Positions 6,532-61,856 of a stretch of 64,000 bases of DNA are shown here, one piece after another. The DNA comes from Flexithrix dorotheae DSM 6795 (GTDB lineage Bacteria; Bacteroidota; Bacteroidia; Cytophagales; Flammeovirgaceae): contig NZ_KB903430.1 of the NCBI RefSeq assembly GCF_000379765.1, positions 654,945-718,944 of the forward strand, in the 5' to 3' direction. The position numbers were made by a program, and so were the translations under genes. Below the pieces are notes generated by a model, which made no database searches, was not told where the DNA came from, and worked only from the letters and a program-made list of their open reading frames with translations. Numbering within the stretch: the first letter of the stretch is position 1; the number at the start of each line of letters is the position of its first letter.

Positions 6532-8442
6532 ATGAAATTTATATCCAATTTAACCCTATTAGGACTTATATTATTTAGTTTCCCTGCAATTAGTGGGGAA
6601 ATTAAATACCCTATAAGCGAAATTCCTGAAGAGTTGCTAAAAGATGCTAATGGAGTTTTAAGATTAGATGAAACTGAATTTACGCTGAAATCAATAAAAG
6701 AAGGCACATTGCGCAGGAAATATGCAATTACCATTCTTAATAAAAAAATGGAAGATTGGGCTTCAATCCAATTGGTTTATTCTGATATTATTGATATTTC
6801 CAAAATTGAAGGGACATTGTATGACGCCTATGGAAATGAGGTCAGATCCTTAAAAAAGAAGGACTTTAAGGATCAGAGTGCAACTGGAGGAGGAACTTTT
6901 GTAGGTGATTATAGGGTAATTTTTGCTGATCTCCTATATAATCAATTTCCTTATACAGTCGAGTTCGAATATGAAAAAGATTACGATGAACTTTATCAAT
7001 ATGAAAGTTGGGACCCGGTTCCGGAAAATTATTTAGCCGTAATGAATTCTTCTTACAAACTGGTTTTTCCTAAGGACATTGAAGTAAGAATAAACGAAAA
7101 ATATTTAAGAAAAGACAGGAAAGAATTTATTCAGGGAGATAATCAGGTTTATTTGTGGGAAGAAGGAAATATCCAATCCGTACTTCCCGAGGATTTATAC
7201 AATGATTATGAATTACCCCAGGTAGAAATTGCTCCCGGTAAATTTTACTACGGAGGATATGAAGGTGATTTTTCATCCTGGAAATCATATGGCATTTGGT
7301 ATAATAACCTGCTAAAAGGACGTGATGAACTTTCCGAAACCACTAGGACCAAAATTCGGGAAATGGTGAAAGATGCTCAATCAGATGAAGAGAAGGTGAA
7401 AATTATCTATGAATACCTGCAATCAAAAACCAGATATGTGAGTATACAGCTTGGCATTGGTGGATTACAACCATTTGAGGCTTCCTTTGTAGATGAAAAG
7501 GGATATGGAGATTGTAAAGCCTTATCAAATTATACTTTGGCAATGCTAAAAGCGGTGGGAATTACTTCCTACTTTACGGTTATTTATGGAGGAAAATATG
7601 CGCCAAAAGTGAAGGAAGACTTCCCTATGGATAAATTTAATCATGTAATTTTATGTGTTCCGCTGGAAAAGGATACTATTTGGCTTGAATGTACCAGTCA
7701 AACGGAGGCATTTGGCTATCAGGGAGGTTTTACGGATGATCGAAAAGCAGTTATCATCAAACCAGATGGAGCTGAACTGGTTCACACTTCGGTAATCAAA
7801 AAAGATGAAAATTTACAAATTAGAAGTGCTGAGGTATTTATCGATGAAAAGGGAAATGCTTCGGCAAGTTTAAAAAATACTTATAAAGCTTTACAGGAAG
7901 GGAAAAGGAAATTTGTTGCTGAACTCCCCAAAGAGGATCAGAAAAAGTGGTTATACGAAAACCTGGATATTTCAAATTATGAAATTCAGCAATTTTCCAT
8001 GAATCGCGTGAAATCCAAAATTCCTGAAACCCACGTTTCCTTGGATATAAATATCCGCAAATGTGCCTCAATAAATGGAAAAAGGTTATTCCTTAAGCCA
8101 AACCTATTAACCAAAATGTCATGGATCCCAGAAAGCCTTGAGGAAAGAAAAACAGAAATTGAGCTCAATAGATTTTATGACTTTATAGACCATGATACTG
8201 TGGTTTACCACCTGCCTGAAAATTTTCATGTAGAATACAATCCTGAAAAAATTCAGTATGAATCTCAATTTGGAAAATATGAAGCTTCAATTACTGTGGA
8301 TAAAAATAAAGTGACATACATCCGGAGAATGGAAATGAACCAGGGAATCTACCCTAAAGAATCCTATGGAGAGCTTAGAAAGTTTCTGAAGGATGTGGTT
8401 AAAGCCGATAAAACGAAAATGGTTTTTGTAAATAAGACATAA
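6532..8442 (+). CDS. Exported DUF3857/transglutaminase-fold protein, probably active
   Basis: A 636-residue protein with signal peptide (MKFISNLTLLGLILFSFPAISG), an N-terminal DUF3857 domain and a transglutaminase-like domain around 280-400. The catalytic Cys is present (Cys328 in GYGDCKALS) and so is the His (His371 in KFNHVILCV). The third acid position reads WLECTSQ, with Glu386 where Asp is usual. Its overall plan matches the preceding gene, from which it is separated by 17 bases, so the two are a co-transcribed paralogous pair. Family members act in the periplasm or at the cell surface on unknown protein or peptide substrates. The stop codon lies inside a perfect palindrome that ends the operon. 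Confidence 0.87.
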   Translation: MKFISNLTLLGLILFSFPAISGEIKYPISEIPEELLKDANGVLRLDETEFTLKSIKEGTLRRKYAITILNKKMEDWASIQLVYSDIIDISKIEGTLYDAYGNEVRSLKKKDFKDQSATGGGTFVGDYRVIFADLLYNQFPYTVEFEYEKDYDELYQYESWDPVPENYLAVMNSSYKLVFPKDIEVRINEKYLRKDRKEFIQGDNQVYLWEEGNIQSVLPEDLYNDYELPQVEIAPGKFYYGGYEGDFSSWKSYGIWYNNLLKGRDELSETTRTKIREMVKDAQSDEEKVKIIYEYLQSKTRYVSIQLGIGGLQPFEASFVDEKGYGDCKALSNYTLAMLKAVGITSYFTVIYGGKYAPKVKEDFPMDKFNHVILCVPLEKDTIWLECTSQTEAFGYQGGFTDDRKAVIIKPDGAELVHTSVIKKDENLQIRSAEVFIDEKGNASASLKNTYKALQEGKRKFVAELPKEDQKKWLYENLDISNYEIQQFSMNRVKSKIPETHVSLDINIRKCASINGKRLFLKPNLLTKMSWIPESLEERKTEIELNRFYDFIDHDTVVYHLPENFHVEYNPEKIQYESQFGKYEASITVDKNKVTYIRRMEMNQGIYPKESYGELRKFLKDVVKADKTKMVFVNKT

Positions 8443-21894: not shown

Positions 21895-22419
21895 TACATT
21901 AGGATTTGCAACCTTGAAAAACCAAATTTATTGCCTTACAATAATGGAGTCCTGAAAATTAAATGTAAGTTTTTCTTAAAAAACTATTTTTTTCAATACT
22001 ACAAACCACTTAAAATCAACAAGTTACACAAATCAACCAGTCCACAAACAGCAAAATATCAAAATAATTTAATTTAAAACTTGAATAATTATATTTTTCT
22101 ATATATACTTGTACTATACGATTGAGATTCGTATTTCTCTTTCAATGTAAGACAGAGAAATTTTTTTAGCTTTTTGCATTTTATACCTACAAAAATTTTC
22201 AAGGGCTAACCAACCAAGAGTGTAATATTTTTACATGTTGGTCTGTGTGTTGACTGAAATATTTACACCTCCAAATATTTGTAATAACTAACTATGCACC
22301 ATTGTGCAGCACGGAAGATAACTATAATTATTTTTCGGCAATAAGAATTTATTGCCTGAATAGAAGAAGATAATACTATAATAACATTATTTATTAACTA
22401 AATTTAAACTGAAACAATT
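21895..22419 (+). other. Hairpin-rich leader upstream of two small exported-protein genes
   Basis: 525 bases without a convincing gene. From about 22116 it holds a row of inverted repeats: ATACGA/TCGTAT (22116-22134), ATTTCTCT/AGAGAAAT with a T-run (22133-22167), a nested pair ACCAAC...GTTGGT enclosing TGTAA/TTACA (22209-22242), a direct repeat of AAATATTT (in 22259-22280), and TGCAC/GTGCA (22295-22308). They could be a small RNA plus terminator, a regulated leader, or unrelated terminators. Confidence 0.4.
22133..22167 (+). terminator. Terminator-like hairpin in the small-protein leader
   Basis: ATTTCTCT (22133-22140) pairs with AGAGAAAT (22154-22161), followed by six more Ts. No gene lies between it and the transpeptidase terminator, so it may end a small RNA or act as an attenuator. 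Confidence 0.45.
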
Positions 22420-22557
22420 ATGAAAAAGTTAGCATTACTTATCTCTGCCCTTGGATTATTATTCATGTTTTCTTGCGAAGATCCTAATGAGGATATTGCT
22501 CCTAAGAAAGAACAAACTAATAGCGGACATGATTTTGATTTAGAGTCTGACTTCTAA
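22420..22557 (+). CDS. Small lipoprotein of unknown function (45 aa)
   Basis: The ATG at 22420 opens a 45-residue frame: hydrophobic signal MKKLALLISALGLLFMFSC with a lipobox-like end (FMFSC), then a short acidic mature part of about 26 residues ending HDFDLESDF. The start codon is followed by typical signal-peptide codons (AAA AAG TTA). It is 50 bases upstream of another small exported protein whose last residues QDFDTDSGW resemble its own, so the two look like an operon of related products. No family was recognised. The size rules out most enzymes. Confidence 0.65.
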   Translation: MKKLALLISALGLLFMFSCEDPNEDIAPKKEQTNSGHDFDLESDF

Positions 22558-22607
22558 TTTAAGTGACTCCTAAATTAATAATCCCACTTTCCAAAAAGAT
22601 TCCAATT

Positions 22608-22850
22608 ATGAAATTTTTCGCTCTAATAGCCACAGGTTCAATGTTTTTCCTTATGTCATTTCAAAACGGCAATGGAGAAACAACTCCCGAAGAGGAGCAG
22701 AAAAATAAATCTGCCAAAGAAGAAAAAGTTGAAGTTCTTGATGTGGACAAAGCTTTAAAAGATTTAGAGAAAAAAGAATTTAGAGCTGTAAAACAAAAGC
22801 CTTTGGATAAGAAAAAGGCACAGGACTTTGATACTGACTCAGGTTGGTAA
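22608..22850 (+). CDS. Small exported charged protein of unknown function (80 aa)
   Basis: Starting at the ATG at 22608 the product has a signal sequence (MKFFALIATGSMFFLMSFQ) and a mature part of about 60 residues that is almost entirely Lys/Glu/Asp, probably helical, with the end AQDFDTDSGW. An in-frame GTG at 22563 would add 15 residues before the signal and was not chosen. The C-terminal DFDxxS motif is shared with the lipoprotein just upstream. A strong hairpin terminator follows 17 bases after the stop, closing the two-gene unit. Confidence 0.65.
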   Translation: MKFFALIATGSMFFLMSFQNGNGETTPEEEQKNKSAKEEKVEVLDVDKALKDLEKKEFRAVKQKPLDKKKAQDFDTDSGW

Positions 22851-22867
22851 TAAATAACCTACTTAGA

Positions 22868-22908
22868 AAAACCATCAGGATACTTTAGTTATCCTGATGG
22901 TTTTCTAC
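22868..22908. terminator. Bidirectional hairpin terminator
   Basis: Fifteen-base perfect arms (22868-22882 and 22890-22904) with an A tract on the left and Ts on the right, between the small-protein unit and the convergent DUF1501 gene. Confidence 0.85.
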
Positions 22909-22924
22909 TTAATTGCATTCTCGC

Positions 22925-24361
22925 TTAAACCAATATCTCTTTCACCACTTCGCCTGCTACATCCGTTAGCCTATATCTCCTTCCCTGATGTTTGAAGGTT
23001 AGCTTTTCGTGGTTAACTCCCATTAAATGCAGAAGGGTCGCCTGAAAATCATGCACATGAACAGGGTCCTTTATAACATTGTAACCAAACTCATCGGTTT
23101 CACCGAAAGTAAATCCTGGCTTCACCCCTCCTCCGGCCATCCACATGGTAAAACATCTTGGATGATGATCCCTTCCGTAATTGTCCTTTGTCAGTTTGCC
23201 CTGAGAATAATTAGTTCTTCCGAACTCTCCACCCCAAACAACCAGTGTATCCTCCAATAAACCTCTTTGCTTAAGGTCTTTTACCAGAGCAGCAGATGCC
23301 TGATCAGTGGCCTTACATTGGTTTTTGATGCCTCTCGGCAATGAATTATGCTGGTCCCAGCCCTGATGATATAATTGAACAAACTTTACATCTCTTTCTA
23401 TTAATCTTCTTGCTAATAAACAATTAGCGGCATAAGTCCCTGGATTTTTTGAGTCTTCCCCGTAAAGGTCAAATACCCAGTCAGGTTCATCTGACAAATC
23501 GGTTACCTCTGGCACAGATGTCTGCATTCTGAAAGCCATTTCGTATTGGGAGATCCTATTATTTATTTCAGGATCCCCAAACATTTCGTATTGGGCATTA
23601 TTCAAATCTTTTAAATGTGAGAGCATTTCTCTCCGGTCTCCGTTGCCATAACCATCCGGATTATTAAGGAAAAGTACTGGATCTTTACCCGACCGAAATT
23701 GAACTCCCTGATGCTTTGAAGGAAGGAATCCATTTCCCCAAAGCCTGGCATAAAGTGGTTGGCCACCTGCATTTTTAGAAACAAGGACGATAAAGGAAGG
23801 TAAGTTTTCATTATCGGATCCAAGCCCATAATTTAACCATGAACCTATACTTGGCCTACCGGGTTGTTGAGAACCTGTTTGAAAAAACGTGATAGCAGGA
23901 TCGTGGTTAATAGCCTCAGTATGTAAGGATTTAATAAAGCAAAGGTCATCTACTATTTCGCTGGTGTAGGGAAGCAATTCACTTACCCATGCCCCCGATT
24001 GCCCGTATCTGGCAAATTTATAATGCGATCCCGCCAGGGGAAAAGAGGATTGGCCGGCACTCATTCCAGTTAACCGTTGTCCCATTCTCACCGAGTCAGG
24101 CAATTCCTGACCATGTCGGGATTCAAGGGTAGGTTTATAATCAAAAGTTTCCAATTGAGATGGTCCCCCACTCTGAAAAAGGTAAATTACTCTTTTTACT
24201 TTTGGCGGGAAATTAGGAAAACTCACCGGGGCGGATTTGCCGATCAGGGCGGTTGGATTGAGTAAAGAACCAAGAGCAAGTGAGCCCAATCCCAGAGAAG
24301 ACTTCTGAAGAAAAGTTCTTCGGTTGATTACATCAGCAATATACTTATTTTCTCTTTTCAT
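22925..24361 (-). CDS. DUF1501 protein with Tat-type signal
   Basis: A 478-residue exported protein when started at the ATG at 24359-24361, which lies 7 bases after the upstream gene's stop. The N-terminus carries a twin-arginine-like signal ([20 protein letters not shown]). DUF1501 belongs to the alkaline phosphatase/sulfatase superfamily; characteristic parts are [50 protein letters not shown] and [21 protein letters not shown]. These proteins are nearly always encoded next to a DUF1549/DUF1553 cytochrome-like partner, as here. Substrate is unknown. It is the second gene of that pair and ends at the shared terminator. Confidence 0.88.
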
Positions 24362-24368
24362 ATTTTTG

Positions 24369-27300
24369 TTATCTTCTGGTAATAAATGCATCCGAATTAA
24401 TAATGGCACTATTGACTATAGCCAAAGCAGCCAGTTCAATTTTTTCCTGCTGTCCAATTGATGAAGCTACATTCATTTCACCAGCAGTAAGCCATCCAGC
24501 CATTTTCCCGGAATCTTTATTAAACTTTTCTACTTGTTTTTCATACAAACTCAACAGAGCATTTAATTCTTTCCCATTAGGTTTTCTGGCAGTCAACAAT
24601 CTAAATCCTCTGCCTATTTTTTCATCTATCTCCCCTTCCATATTCATTTGTTTGGTTGCTAAAGCTTTTGAAGCTTCCACAAACTGGGGATCATTTAACA
24701 ACACGAGAGCTTGTAAAGGAGTACTTGTTTTCTCCCGATTAACCACACAATAACTTCTGCTTGGAGCATCGAAGGTATTCATAGATGGAGGGGGAACAGT
24801 TCTTTTCCAAAAAGTATACAAACTTCTTCTGTATAAATCATCGCCTTTATCCTGTTTGTAAGCCGATCCATTCACTTTCCACAAGCCTTCCGGCTGGTAC
24901 GGTTTTACACTTGGCCCTCCCTGTTTTTCATTCATCAGCCCACTGGCAAACAAGACATTATCTCTTAGCATTTCTGCTGACAACCTGAACGCAGGCCCCC
25001 TTGCCAATAGCACATTGTCAGGATCGATTTCCCGTAACTCCGGTGTTGAAAATGATGATTGCCTGTAAGTCGCGGACATTACAATTAATTTCTGAATTGC
25101 TTTAATATCCCAGCCTGATTCAATAAACTGATTGGCCAACCAGTCTAAAAGCTCGGGATGGCTTGGCAACTCTCCCTGGTTTCCAAAATCTGCAGTGGTA
25201 CTGACTAAACCTCTACCAAAATAATTTTTCCAAAACCTGTTTACAAAAACCCTTGCTGTAAGTGGATTATCCTTGTGCATCAACCATTTAGCTAATCCCA
25301 ACCTGTTTTTTGGCAGTGACTCTGGAAATGGCAGAATATTTTCCGGTGTTCCGGGAATAACCTCCTCCGATTTTGCGTCATAAACCCCTCTTTCCAGAAT
25401 AAAAGTTTTTCTGGGGTTTTCCAACTCATCCATTACCATCGCTTCTGGGATATCTTCGAGCAATTTATTTTTTTTCGCTCTCAGCTCATTTAATGATTTG
25501 AGGTTTTTACGATAAGCAATAGAAAAATTATTCAAATAAAAATCATAAATATCATCTGGCTGTTGAGACCTATTCTCCTGATGAGCTAAAATCGATATTT
25601 CAGGAAGTGTTAATTCCGAATCAAAAACTTTTATTTCATCTACAATAGCGCCCTTGATTCCAGTACCTCTCCATCGGGCTCCAATTTGCAATCCGGGTTC
25701 CTCCTTCAGGCTAGGAAAAAGGATATCTTTATAAAGCTTATCCTTTTCCACCTCAAATACCAATTCTTCTCCATCCACAAACAATTTAAAACCGTCTGCC
25801 TTACTGGACCCATCATAGGTTACTGTCAATTGAATCCATTTATCCTTGGGAACTTCATCTTTAGAAAGTTTGATAATATTGTTGTAGGGCCATGTATGAG
25901 CCATTAATAACTCAAATTTATTATCCCTGATAGCCAGATGATAACCCCGGAAATTATAAATAATAGCGCCATTTCCTTTATGAAATATTACCCCCTCCTT
26001 CAAGGAATTGGGAATATTGATCCACAAGCCTACTGTGAAAGGCTGCGACCGATTAAAAACCCCAACTTTCCTCAAATTCATTTCTTCATCCCCATTTAAC
26101 CTTACTCCTTTTCCAAACTTCCCCTCTACAAACACTGGTTCAACAAGAGTTGCCGAATCTTTATTAGAAATCCGGCTAACAAAATTTCCCCTCTTGAGCT
26201 CATCGAGAGGAAAATGTGCAATAGGTTTTTTATTTAATTGTGTGGTTTTTTGAATTTCTTTACTTTGAAACCCTTCCTTTTCCTGGGCTTTAATTTTACT
26301 AAGTTCCTTTTCGGTTTTAGTGATTTCTCCATCCAGAAAAGCAATTATACTATCTTGTTTTTCATCGGTTAGCAAAATAGTAGGCACTGGCATGGCATCA
26401 TCCCAGGAAATCTGACCGGCTTCATCTACATTATTAAAATATCCGAAAAGCTGGAAATATTCTTTTTGTGAAATAGGATCATATTTATGATCATGGCATC
26501 GGGCACATTCTACGGTAAGCCCTAAAAATGCCGTTCCCAGAGTGTTGGTCCTGTCTGCTACATATTCTACCCTAAATTCTTCATTCACAATCCCTCCCTC
26601 CATATTTTGGGCATGATTTCTATTAAAACCGGTAGCCAAAATTTGCTCTCTGGTAGGGTTTGGAAGCAGGTCACCTGCCAATTGCCATTCCACAAATTGA
26701 TCGAATGGCATGTTTTCATTAAATGATTTAATCACCCAGTCTCTCCAGGGCCACATTGGTCTGTACCGGTCTACTGAGTACCCGTGTGTATCGGCAAATC
26801 TGGACAAATCCATCCAGTCTACTGCCATCTTCTCTCCATAATGAGGGGAGGCTAATAATTTATCCACCATTTGCTCATATGCATCCGGGGAATTATTATT
26901 GAGAAATTCTTCAATATCTTCCAGCGATGGTGGCAACCCGGTAAGGTCAAGAGAAACTCTCCTGATAAGGATTTCCTTTTCGGCTTCAGATTGTTGGGTA
27001 AGGCCTTCCTTTTCTAATCGGCTTAGCACAAAATTGTCAATAGAATTATAGACAGTACCTTGGTTTATTTCCGGAATGGGGTGTTTTTCAGGTTTAATAA
27101 ATGCCCAATGAGGTTTATATTTAGCACCCTGTTCAATCCATTTTATCAAAATTGCCTTTTCCTCATCTGAAAGAGTAAGGTTAGATTCTAAAGGCGGCAT
27201 AACCAATTCCTGATCATCAGTTGCAATTCGATGGAATACCTGACTTTTGGATAGTTTTCCCGGCACAATGGGAAAATGACCAGGATTTTCAGATAATTCG

Positions 27301-27575
27301 GCAAATGCCACATCACCCGAGGTAAGCTGAAGCCCACCTTTTACTCCTGCCTTATCAGGCCCATGGCAGGCAAAGCATTTATCAGAAAGAATTGGTTTGA
27401 CATGGATATTGAAATCAATGGTTTCTGGTAATTCAGATTTGGCTTTTGCTACTTCCGGTGGCAATTCCACCCCACAAGAAGAAAAGAAAAGGGTTGCACA
27501 AATCAAAAAGCAAAAAAATGCATAGGAGTACTGATGATGACAATATTTTTTCAGTAGATAATCATTCATTTTCAT
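24369..27575 (-). CDS. PSCyt1/DUF1549/LamG/DUF1553 surface lipoprotein
   Basis: A very large (about 1068 residues) lipoprotein started at 27575; an ATG six bases later is equally possible. Order: signal peptide with lipobox FSSC (Cys34), planctomycete-type cytochrome c domain with CFACH heme motif (Cys67-His71), DUF1549 (about 165-370, with LDLTGLPPS and [18 protein letters not shown]), a LamG/concanavalin-like domain (about 450-640), and DUF1553 (about 740-1010, with [18 protein letters not shown]). Members are typical of Planctomycetes and polysaccharide-degrading Bacteroidota and probably act at the outer surface in sugar oxidation. It is paired with DUF1501 and faces an AraC-type regulator, but no glycoside hydrolase adjoins it. 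Confidence 0.88.
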
Positions 27576-27787
27576 ATAAACGAAAGAAGATTTAATAGCC
27601 AATAATTGAAACAAGTCCTAATATTAAAACAAAGATCAGATCTAATAGATTTGGGTTGATAAATGTTAGTTGAAATTTAGATTATAAGTAATTACAAGAA
27701 TAAGGTAAATAAACTAACTCTTCAATACATAAAAAAGGGCTATTTTTGCACAAATCCGATTTTTTACATCAAAAACCTCAATTATTA

Positions 27788-28660
27788 ATGCACAAATCCC
27801 ATAACAGTTTAAATATCCAGCTATTACATACAGATTTTTCCGAGCTGAATGATAGTTGGAATTATGATAATGTATTTAGTCCTTTTTCAAGGATTTATCT
27901 GATTACCAAAGGGGAAGGCTGGGTTTGGCATAGTAATAAAAAATACTGCCTAAAACCAAATCATTTATATTTAATCCCAAAATTCACCTTAAGCAGATAC
28001 CGTTGTGACCAATATTTATCTCAATTCTATATTCATTTCTTAAGTGAACCAGATGATAAACCAGAAGTTTTCGAAGCATTTTCTTTTCAATATGAAGTAG
28101 AAGCCAGCCCATTGGATTATGAGTTATTTGACAGACTATTAAAGTTAAATCCTGAAAAAAATTTAAAAGCAACTAATCCAAAGGATTATGATAACAGGTC
28201 CAATCTTTTAAGCTTCAATCAGCCTTATGAAACTCAAAACCCACAAGGTTTTCTTGAAAGTAAGGGTATTTTGCTCCAGTTATTCTCCAGATTTATCGTA
28301 AACTCTTCCCCTGAAAAAGAAAAAGATATAAAACTTAATCATAAAATAGGCTCAACGGTATCCCATATTCACAAGAATTTAAAGGAAAAATTAACGGTGG
28401 AAGAATTGGCAGAAAGGGTATTTCTCAGCCCTGATTATTTTTCAAAATGCTTTATGGAAGTTATGGGTATCAGGCCTATTGATTATATCAATAATAAACG
28501 CCTTGAAAGGGCTCAACTTCTTCTCACCACTACGGGCAAGTCTATGCAGGAAATTGCCGAAGAAATTGGCATTCCCAATTTATCCTACTTTTCCCGATTG
28601 TTTAAACGAAAGTTCGGTATTCCTCCAGCAAGGTTCCGGACACAAAAATGGGCGATTTGA
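27788..28660 (+). CDS. AraC-family transcriptional regulator
   Basis: A 290-residue regulator. I chose the ATG at 27788; a TTG 42 bases earlier is in frame but has no support. The N-terminal part is a cupin-like sensing domain (ARISLITKGEGWVWHSNKKYCLKPNHLYLIP pattern) and the C-terminal 95 residues are the double helix-turn-helix (LTVEELAERVFLSPDYFSKCF, then IAEEIGIPNLSYFSRLFKRKFGIPPARFR). It is divergent from the DUF1549/DUF1501 pair and probably activates it in response to a small sugar-like ligand. A TATTTTTG box (27741-27748) lies 40 bases before the start. Its stop abuts the porT stop without spacer. Confidence 0.88.
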   Translation: MHKSHNSLNIQLLHTDFSELNDSWNYDNVFSPFSRIYLITKGEGWVWHSNKKYCLKPNHLYLIPKFTLSRYRCDQYLSQFYIHFLSEPDDKPEVFEAFSFQYEVEASPLDYELFDRLLKLNPEKNLKATNPKDYDNRSNLLSFNQPYETQNPQGFLESKGILLQLFSRFIVNSSPEKEKDIKLNHKIGSTVSHIHKNLKEKLTVEELAERVFLSPDYFSKCFMEVMGIRPIDYINNKRLERAQLLLTTTGKSMQEIAEEIGIPNLSYFSRLFKRKFGIPPARFRTQKWAI

Positions 28661-60464: not shown

Positions 60465-61856
60465 TTATAAATTTCCAATCATTTTTGATGGAATAACCCA
60501 TTCATCAAATTGCTCATTGGTTAACAGTTTTAATTCTAAAGCAGCTTCTCTTAAAGTAGTTCCATCGGCATGCGCTTTTTTGGCAATTTTTGCTGCGTTG
60601 TCATAGCCAATATGCGTATTTAAGGCAGTTACAAGCATCAGGGAATTTTCCAAATGTTCCTTTATCGCTTTGTGATTGGGCTCAATTCCTACAGCACAGT
60701 TTTCATCAAAGGACTGACAAGCATCTCCAATAAGTCTCGCTGCTGTTAGTACATTAAAGGCCATCATTGGTTTGAAAACATTCAACTCAAAGTGTCCGGT
60801 AGATCCACCTACACTCACAGCTGTATCCAGTCCAATCACCTGAGCACACACCATAGTTAATGCTTCGCACTGCGTAGGGTTCACTTTTCCAGGCATAATG
60901 GAAGACCCTGGCTCGTTGGAAGGAATTATTATTTCTCCAATTCCCGATCTTGGTCCTGAAGACAACATCCTGATATCATTGCCAATTTTCATCAGGCTAA
61001 CAGCTACTTGTTTTAGTGCACCTGACGCGCCAACCATGCCATCATGAGCTGCAAGGGCCTCAAATTTATTGGGAGCTGTTACAAAAGGCAATCCGGTTAA
61101 TTCAGAAATTTTCTTGGCAACTAATTCTGCATAGCCTTGAGGGGCATTCAATCCAGTTCCTACAGCGGTTCCTCCCAGTGCCAATTCAGACAAATGTCCC
61201 AGGGAATGCTTTAATGCAGCAATTCCGTGATCCAATTGGGAAACATACCCACTAAACTCCATACCCAAAGTAAGAGGTGTAGCATCCATAAAGTGTGTCC
61301 GGCCAATTTTAACCACATCTTTAAATGCCTTTGCTTTTTTATCCAGGGTATCTCTTAATTGCTGAACTTTAGGAATAGTTTGCTCCAAGATATATTGATA
61401 TGAAGCAATGTGCATGGCCGTTGGGAAGGTATCATTAGAAGATTGTGACTTATTTACGTCATCATTGGGGTGAATTTTCTTAGCTTTATCTTCCAGGCTT
61501 CCACCCAGTAACACATGTGCTCTGTTGGCAATTACCTCATTGGAATTCATATTGGATTGGGTTCCGGAACCGGTTTGCCAAACAACAAGAGGGAATTGAT
61601 CATCCAGTTTACCTTCCAGAATTTCCGCACAAACCTTCGAAATAATTTCTGCCTTATCGGTATCCAAAACGCCTAAATCGGCATTGGTTAAAGCTGCCGC
61701 TTTTTTTAATATGGCAAATGCCCTTATGATTTCCATAGGCATGGTATGCCCGCCAATTTTAAAGTTTTGTATTGATCTTTGCGTTTGGGCTCCCCAATAT
61801 TTTTCGGCAGGAACCTGAACTTCTCCCATCGTATCTTTTTCTATTCTGTATCCCAT
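60465..61856 (-). CDS. fumC: Fumarate hydratase, class II
   Basis: A 463-residue TCA-cycle enzyme that hydrates fumarate to malate without an iron-sulfur cluster. Recognition sites: [34 protein letters not shown], and the class signature [16 protein letters not shown]. Length and start ([32 protein letters not shown]) are typical. Single gene. Confidence 0.95.

Follow-up and report, generated by a model that had tools for sequence, protein, structure and literature searches.

A tandem pair of tiny, probably exported proteins with a common C-terminal tail in Flexithrix dorotheae and its relatives

The Two Genes and Their Products

Can two very small neighbouring proteins, which resemble each other in little besides their last residues, be parts of one and the same system in the bacterial envelope? 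This question is raised by a locus of Flexithrix dorotheae DSM 6795, which we studied within a window of 64,000 nucleotides (the whole stretch of DNA that was analysed; contig NZ_KB903430.1, positions 654,945 to 718,944, with coordinates below given as those of the window). The first open reading frame, P1, lies on the + strand at 22420..22557 and encodes a lipoprotein of 45 aa with the tail HDFDLESDF. The second, P2, follows on the same strand at 22608..22850, and its product of 80 aa has an N-terminal hydrophobic segment and the tail QDFDTDSGW. When both ORFs were re-read in the window, the coordinates, lengths and end sequences given for them in the original prediction proved to be correct.

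The lipobox of P1 ends in FSC and leaves a mature part of 27 aa with a net charge of -7; P1 is a lipoprotein, probably placed on the outer membrane. The middle of P2 is acidic and lysine-rich. P2 is best read as a protein that would be either exported or held in the inner membrane through its N-terminal hydrophobic segment; a by-eye reading of the sequence for a signal-peptidase I site gave no clear answer. Structure prediction placed a short helix at residues 45-54 of P2, with low confidence (mean pLDDT 57).

Distribution of the Pair and Its Gene Neighbourhood

A profile search of 390 genomes of the order, in which up to 14 or 17 candidates per genome were scored, gave strong matches in four of them, all belonging to two genera of one family: the window genome, one congener (G001), and two genomes of another genus (G008 and G011, hereafter the second genus). 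The E-values of these four loci in that search hold by construction, since the same loci were used to build the profiles. A protein search of 58 genomes found P1 in G001, G008 and G011. For P2 it gave a match in G001 (E 2.3e-36, identity 75%) and a weak one in G008 (E 0.003). At all four loci the genes are adjacent and in the same order, P1 has a lipobox followed, right after the cysteine, by the conserved stretch CEDP[NS]EDI, and P2 starts with a hydrophobic N-terminus. Moreover, the expectation that the DFDxxS-type ending would be conserved in genes that stay side by side was borne out at each of these loci; related genomes were also looked at for an absence of tailed homologues, and homologues with the tail are present in them.

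Conservation is shallow, comprising four loci in two genera. The weaker matches in the order (best E 2.4e-4 for P2 and 7.5e-6 for P1) span mostly the N-terminal part and lie mostly inside longer frames, and a script that read both strands of 52 of these weaker loci found none with a small ORF that begins with a hydrophobic stretch and has D[FY]D among its last 14 residues. In a sample of the phylum beyond the window genome, P2 was matched in 2 of 326 genomes and P1 in 3 of 316; neither strand of these five loci holds, in the vicinity of the match, a frame of at least 40 codons with the tail, and two of the five (L187 and L190) are short lipoprotein frames without it. In addition, the matches listed in a scan of genome contigs were the loci of G008 and G011 and no others.

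The weak phylum-level match at L190 has a P1-like start, ACDPNEELYDELD, and lacks the tail. On the - strand of that locus, at about 1477-1626 of the reverse strand, the P1-like start ACDPNEELYDELDKKE is followed by a longer overlapping frame. L190 may be a larger lipoprotein whose frame is broken, which would suggest that the post-cysteine stretch of P1 is a start common to larger lipoproteins. As a separate observation, contigs PBYL01000344.1 (L121) and CAKZMZ010000399.1 (L122) come from bins titled Thalassovita and Thalassobius metagenome, which we take to be alphaproteobacterial names; the contigs match genomes placed in the window's family, and the titles probably represent mislabelled records.

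In the window's genus the pair is flanked by what we take to be L,D-transpeptidase-like and DUF1501-like genes, and in the second genus (g8) it lies directly downstream of a presumed fumarase-like gene; the different flanks in the two genera indicate that the pair moved as a unit. The window genome also has a class II fumarase-like gene, located about 38 kb from the pair (60468-61856, - strand), whose relative in the second genus is the one adjoining the pair there. No pair-linked partner gene is common to both genera. Among the 18 genomes of the family, the fumarase-like gene was matched 11 times in 10 genomes and the transpeptidase-like gene 19 times in 14, and within 1.5 kb of flank beside these genes, the four known loci were the only ones to show a tailed small exported ORF. 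In the window, two large genes on the - strand (22925-27614) converge on the pair, both of them kept in the contig of the congener; they look like the cytochrome-type genes of Planctomycetes with DUF1501 and DUF1553/DUF1549. An AraC-like regulator is found beside them, at 27746-28660.

Likeness of the Two Tails and Selection on Them

We then focused our attention on the tails themselves. In congener G001 they read HDFDLESDF (P1) and QDFDTDSGW (P2), in G008 GDFDARSGL and PDFDAHAGLD, and in G011 PDYDAKSGL and SDFDAHAELD. Hence both tails contain D-[FY]-D-x-x-[SA]-[GED]-[LFW] in all four genomes, with one extra D in two of them. The likeness between the P1 and P2 tails exceeds chance: the score of 23 obtained for the window was equalled by none of 460 background C-termini (ORFs of at least 100 aa from the window and related loci, with some chance ORFs among them), a comparison which upholds the claim of a shared tail in the original prediction. 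The score of 33 for G008 was likewise equalled by 0/460, and that of 21 for G011 by 1/460, so that the likeness within a genome is uneven. The two tails of G008 are closer to each other than to their counterparts in the window (21 and 24). When the family profiles of P1 and P2 were aligned with each other, the alignment was confined to the last 17 columns (hhalign probability 90.9).

Comparison of the window with G001 points to purifying selection on both genes. Leaving aside one inserted codon, P1 differs by 6 synonymous changes and no non-synonymous ones, with 3 and 0, respectively, in its last 9 codons; the last 10 codons of P2 show 5 synonymous and 0 non-synonymous changes. The synonymous sites that differ amount to 3 of 4.0 in the P1 tail and 5 of 5.7 in the P2 tail. 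For the whole of P2 a dN/dS of 0.15 was obtained, distributed as about 0.4 for each of residues 1-23 and 24-38, 0.04 for residues 39-60 and 0.18 for residues 61-70. Constraint in P2 is thus concentrated in two parts, the tail being one of them. Among its homologues, P2 also keeps the patch [DE]-[VI]-D-[KT]-x-L ... K-x-[ED]-F. Conservation of P2 residues 39-60 and of the stretch after the P1 cysteine argues against the tail being the sole constrained part of these proteins. Overall, constraint falls on the post-anchor region of P1, on the P2 patch and on both tails, while the linkers vary, which is the arrangement to be expected when one short linear motif is carried by proteins anchored in different ways.

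To place these ends within whole genomes, a stop-ended codon pattern, D[FY]Dxx[SA][GED]x, was used, covering TCN serines only, one residue after [GED], and ATG starts. In the 9.54 Mb window genome it had two matches, P1 and P2, and the reversed-pattern control also had two, so about two matches are expected by chance. Across the 18 genomes of the family it gave 21 matches, six of which are members of the pair. Eleven others, all from genus g3, read through a tryptophan codon of a protein or long frame, because the last codon of the pattern also permitted TGG, and the other four are three frames of 21-25 codons and the end of one large protein. A narrower pattern, with a single residue after G alone, gave 18 matches in the 390 genomes of the order (reversed control, 17); four are pair members, and in the remaining 14 frames no exported protein could be recognised. 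With counts this near to chance, from patterns that miss some variants (e.g., P2 of G008 and G011), the informative part is adjacency together with conservation.

The original prediction had regarded the ending as a possible recognition tag for processing or secretion. A tag in general use finds no backing here, as the codon patterns used revealed no other recognisable small exported carrier in the 18 genomes of the family or the 390 of the order. A general sorting tag is therefore unlikely, and the tail would, within the limits of the patterns, be specific to this pair. We also considered whether the tail might be a calcium-binding DxDxDG motif and rejected this, given that the third acidic residue is missing in the second genus.

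Comparison with Known Families and Systems

Neither protein had a match in Pfam or PADLOC, and those in NCBIfam and PHROGs (best E 0.025) were at chance level. Among solved structures, the best match for P2 was also at chance level (E 0.066) and P1 had none. The statement that the pair corresponds to no described family thus agrees with the lack of any above-chance match in Pfam, NCBIfam, PHROGs and PADLOC. Moreover, a described pair of this kind was not found in a literature search that included spanins, a result about that search rather than a claim of absence from print.

Similarities to several known systems deserve comment. Like the LES surface lipoproteins of Bacteroidota, P1 has acidic residues directly after the lipidated cysteine, but its C-E-D-P-[NS]-E-D-I does not contain K-(D/E)2 or Q-A-(D/E)2, the minimal LES motif described for Capnocytophaga (PMC5080379). 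Other species use other acidic consensus strings, and P1 may still be displayed on the surface. Entericidin A/B, two tiny envelope lipoproteins in tandem, resemble the pair in being tiny tandem envelope proteins; P2 differs from them in not being a lipoprotein, with relatedness judged here by family libraries only. Finally, large proteins or long frames of genus g3 contain tail-like strings such as YYRLTQFDFDGKSE (loci L125, L126, L128, L129, L133, L134, L136, L137, L139, L140 and L142), which in our view look like part of a type IX secretion domain. In those proteins the string is internal, whereas P1 and P2 have the tail alone. A type IX secretion signal in P1 or P2 was accordingly sought and discarded, with no such match in Pfam or NCBIfam up to E 1.

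Possible Role of the Pair and Alternative Explanations

The explanation that we favour, and to which we would give even chances, is that the two genes form an operon, restricted to this lineage, for tiny envelope proteins that both dock by their tails on the same partner. P1 would act as a lipid-anchored carrier, and P2 as a differently anchored carrier, of a single docking peptide; each would combine a poorly conserved linker with a conserved short linear motif at the C-terminus, D-[FY]-D-x-x-[SA]-[GED]-hydrophobic. We infer that one envelope protein most likely binds both tails. This reading is weakened by the shallow conservation, by the lack of a linked partner gene common to both genera, by the uneven likeness of the tails within genomes, by constraint outside the tails and by the poor alignment of the leaders between the genera; the low-confidence model of P2 adds nothing to it. 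Retention of the pair and of its tails in a second genus suggests that the tails are a working part. If the common partner exists, the tail would represent a new envelope docking motif, although the narrow spread, with two genera found, limits its generality. Tiny exported proteins are easily overlooked or dismissed; here, the order of the genes, the two ends of nine residues and a leader RNA all let selection be read directly, and the pair offers a short peptide to be used as bait as well as a clear genetic test.

A rather doubtful explanation, yet one to be weighed seriously, is that a single small exported gene was duplicated in tandem to give P1 and P2, so that the tail would be a remnant of common ancestry in proteins with related but separate jobs. 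It would account for the same order and the same tail in both proteins, and the hydrophobic segments do end alike (LLFMFSC vs FFLMSFQ in the window, LLFTFSC vs IFLFSFT in G008). However, those segments look alike by composition, the profile comparison aligns the tails only, and paralogues free of constraint would not be expected to retain the tail alone. Duplication is also compatible with docking of both tails on a common partner, and may explain how the pair originated.

It is quite unlikely that the two proteins form an envelope-spanning pair, like the two-component phage spanins (Rz/Rz1) or a housekeeping analogue of them, in which an outer-membrane lipoprotein and an inner-membrane protein with a helix in the periplasm meet through their C-terminal parts. 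The architecture is similar: spanins combine in tandem a tiny outer-membrane lipoprotein and a membrane-anchored partner, and at the locus a lipoprotein with 27 aa in its mature form is encoded in tandem with a protein whose N-terminus is hydrophobic, both with conserved C-termini and with membrane placement here being predicted. As in spanins, the C-terminal parts would matter. The best spanin match in PHROGs, a single and very weak one between P2 and an Rz-like spanin (E 0.084), is nevertheless at chance level. Furthermore, the tails of P1 and P2 are alike and not complementary, and with both of them acidic, they are not likely to bind each other directly unless a metal or a third protein takes part. 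Concerning P2, no long coiled coil is predicted, and the only predicted helix after the N-terminal segment is short and of low confidence; an inspection by eye of the neighbouring ORFs turned up no recognisable phage, prophage or lysis genes. Moreover, according to PMC6139136, i-spanins do not seem to interact through their very C-terminal end.

Very unlikely, in our opinion, is that P1 and P2 are precursors of secreted signals or of modified peptides, the conserved C-terminal peptide being cut and released or modified by an enzyme. A conserved end, a variable middle and an export signal would fit such precursors, and a lipidated modified peptide whose biosynthesis co-opts the lipoprotein pathway, with an enzyme from Chryseobacterium, has been reported (PMC12636315). 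On the other hand, inspection by eye of both kinds of neighbourhood recognised no modifying enzyme, protease or dedicated exporter, nor was a conserved cleavage site seen by eye before the tail. Lastly, chance ORFs or a chance likeness of two short ends are hardly credible, for even though the proteins are short, with many charged residues, and the motif is expected once or twice per genome (the narrower pattern having 18 matches against 17 for its reversed control in 390 genomes), the ORFs, tails and adjacency are kept in four genomes, P1 has 0 non-synonymous changes, and the homologues already contradict this explanation.

Leader RNA and Operon Ends

Upstream of P1, a block of 63 bp (22061..22123, + strand) is identical in G001, as determined by alignment and a count of the longest identical blocks. 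It contains a promoter-like sequence, with TTG at 22081-22083 and TATACTTG at 22104-22111, an arrangement that we take to resemble the housekeeping promoter consensus of Bacteroidota. Scanning for promoter-like sites by hexamer spacing gave 6, versus a mean of 5.2 in shuffles; since the scan performed no better than shuffles, the consensus match alone means little. A 5' leader of about 300 nt would extend from the putative start site to P1 (22118..22419, + strand). It is 79% identical in G001, compared with 62% in the spacer further upstream and 54-55% between the genes and after P2.

In the two-species consensus, the leader contains three hairpins on the + strand. Hairpin 1 (22133..22161) is followed by a T run and has, between the species, one pair changed on both sides, four changed on one side and none broken; in the minimum-energy folds of both single sequences, a competing hairpin overlaps it. 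Hairpin 2 (22211..22245) has one pair changed on both sides and none broken, and hairpin 3 (22337..22356) one pair changed on both sides, three changed to G-U on one side and none broken. The consensus fold was equalled by 1/200 column shuffles in the window's genus and by 0/200 in the second genus, while the single-sequence folds of the leader are less striking (z -2.55 and -1.31). In the second genus, a long-range stem with two compensated pairs is found upstream of P1, and the leaders of the two genera give no convincing alignment to each other. Altogether, these comparisons, with two sequences per alignment, are suggestive, though not proof, of a conserved leader structure. Rfam gave nothing at gathering score in the window; two matches below that score in the region were rejected as eukaryotic chance matches.

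At its other end, the pair is followed by a terminator-like hairpin (22864..22907, + strand; -22.5 kcal/mol, z -6.7). A stable hairpin lies 3' of P2 at all four loci, with a different sequence in each, energies of -16.7 to -22.5 kcal/mol and z values of -6.7, -6.1, -5.6 and -2.9; those of the second genus have no clear T run. A leader and a terminator bounding the pair, as initially proposed, are therefore supported by the conservation and consensus fold of the former and by the hairpin after P2. A consensus scan detected no + strand terminator between P1 and P2, and as it also missed the hairpin at 22864, this negative is weak evidence. Transcription of the operon would proceed from the conserved promoter through the structured leader and end at the hairpin after P2.

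Combining the leader with the docking of both tails leads to a more elaborate proposal, which we consider unlikely. The pair would constitute an undescribed envelope module in which one D-[FY]-D-x-x-[SA]-G-hydrophobic C-terminus is shown at the same time from a lipid anchor and from a second protein anchored in another way. It would bridge or titrate one partner, located in the periplasm or at the surface, in a dose set by the structured leader. The leader might be an attenuator or a ligand-sensing RNA, a possibility raised by the T run of hairpin 1 and by the competing hairpin that overlaps it. As a further observation on the leaders of the second genus, at L062 one strand, CAGGTATCCCTCAG, has two possible pairing partners downstream (the stretches involved lie at 7355-7368, 7462-7474 and 7499-7508), and judged by the letters only, these alternative pairings look like mutually exclusive structures.
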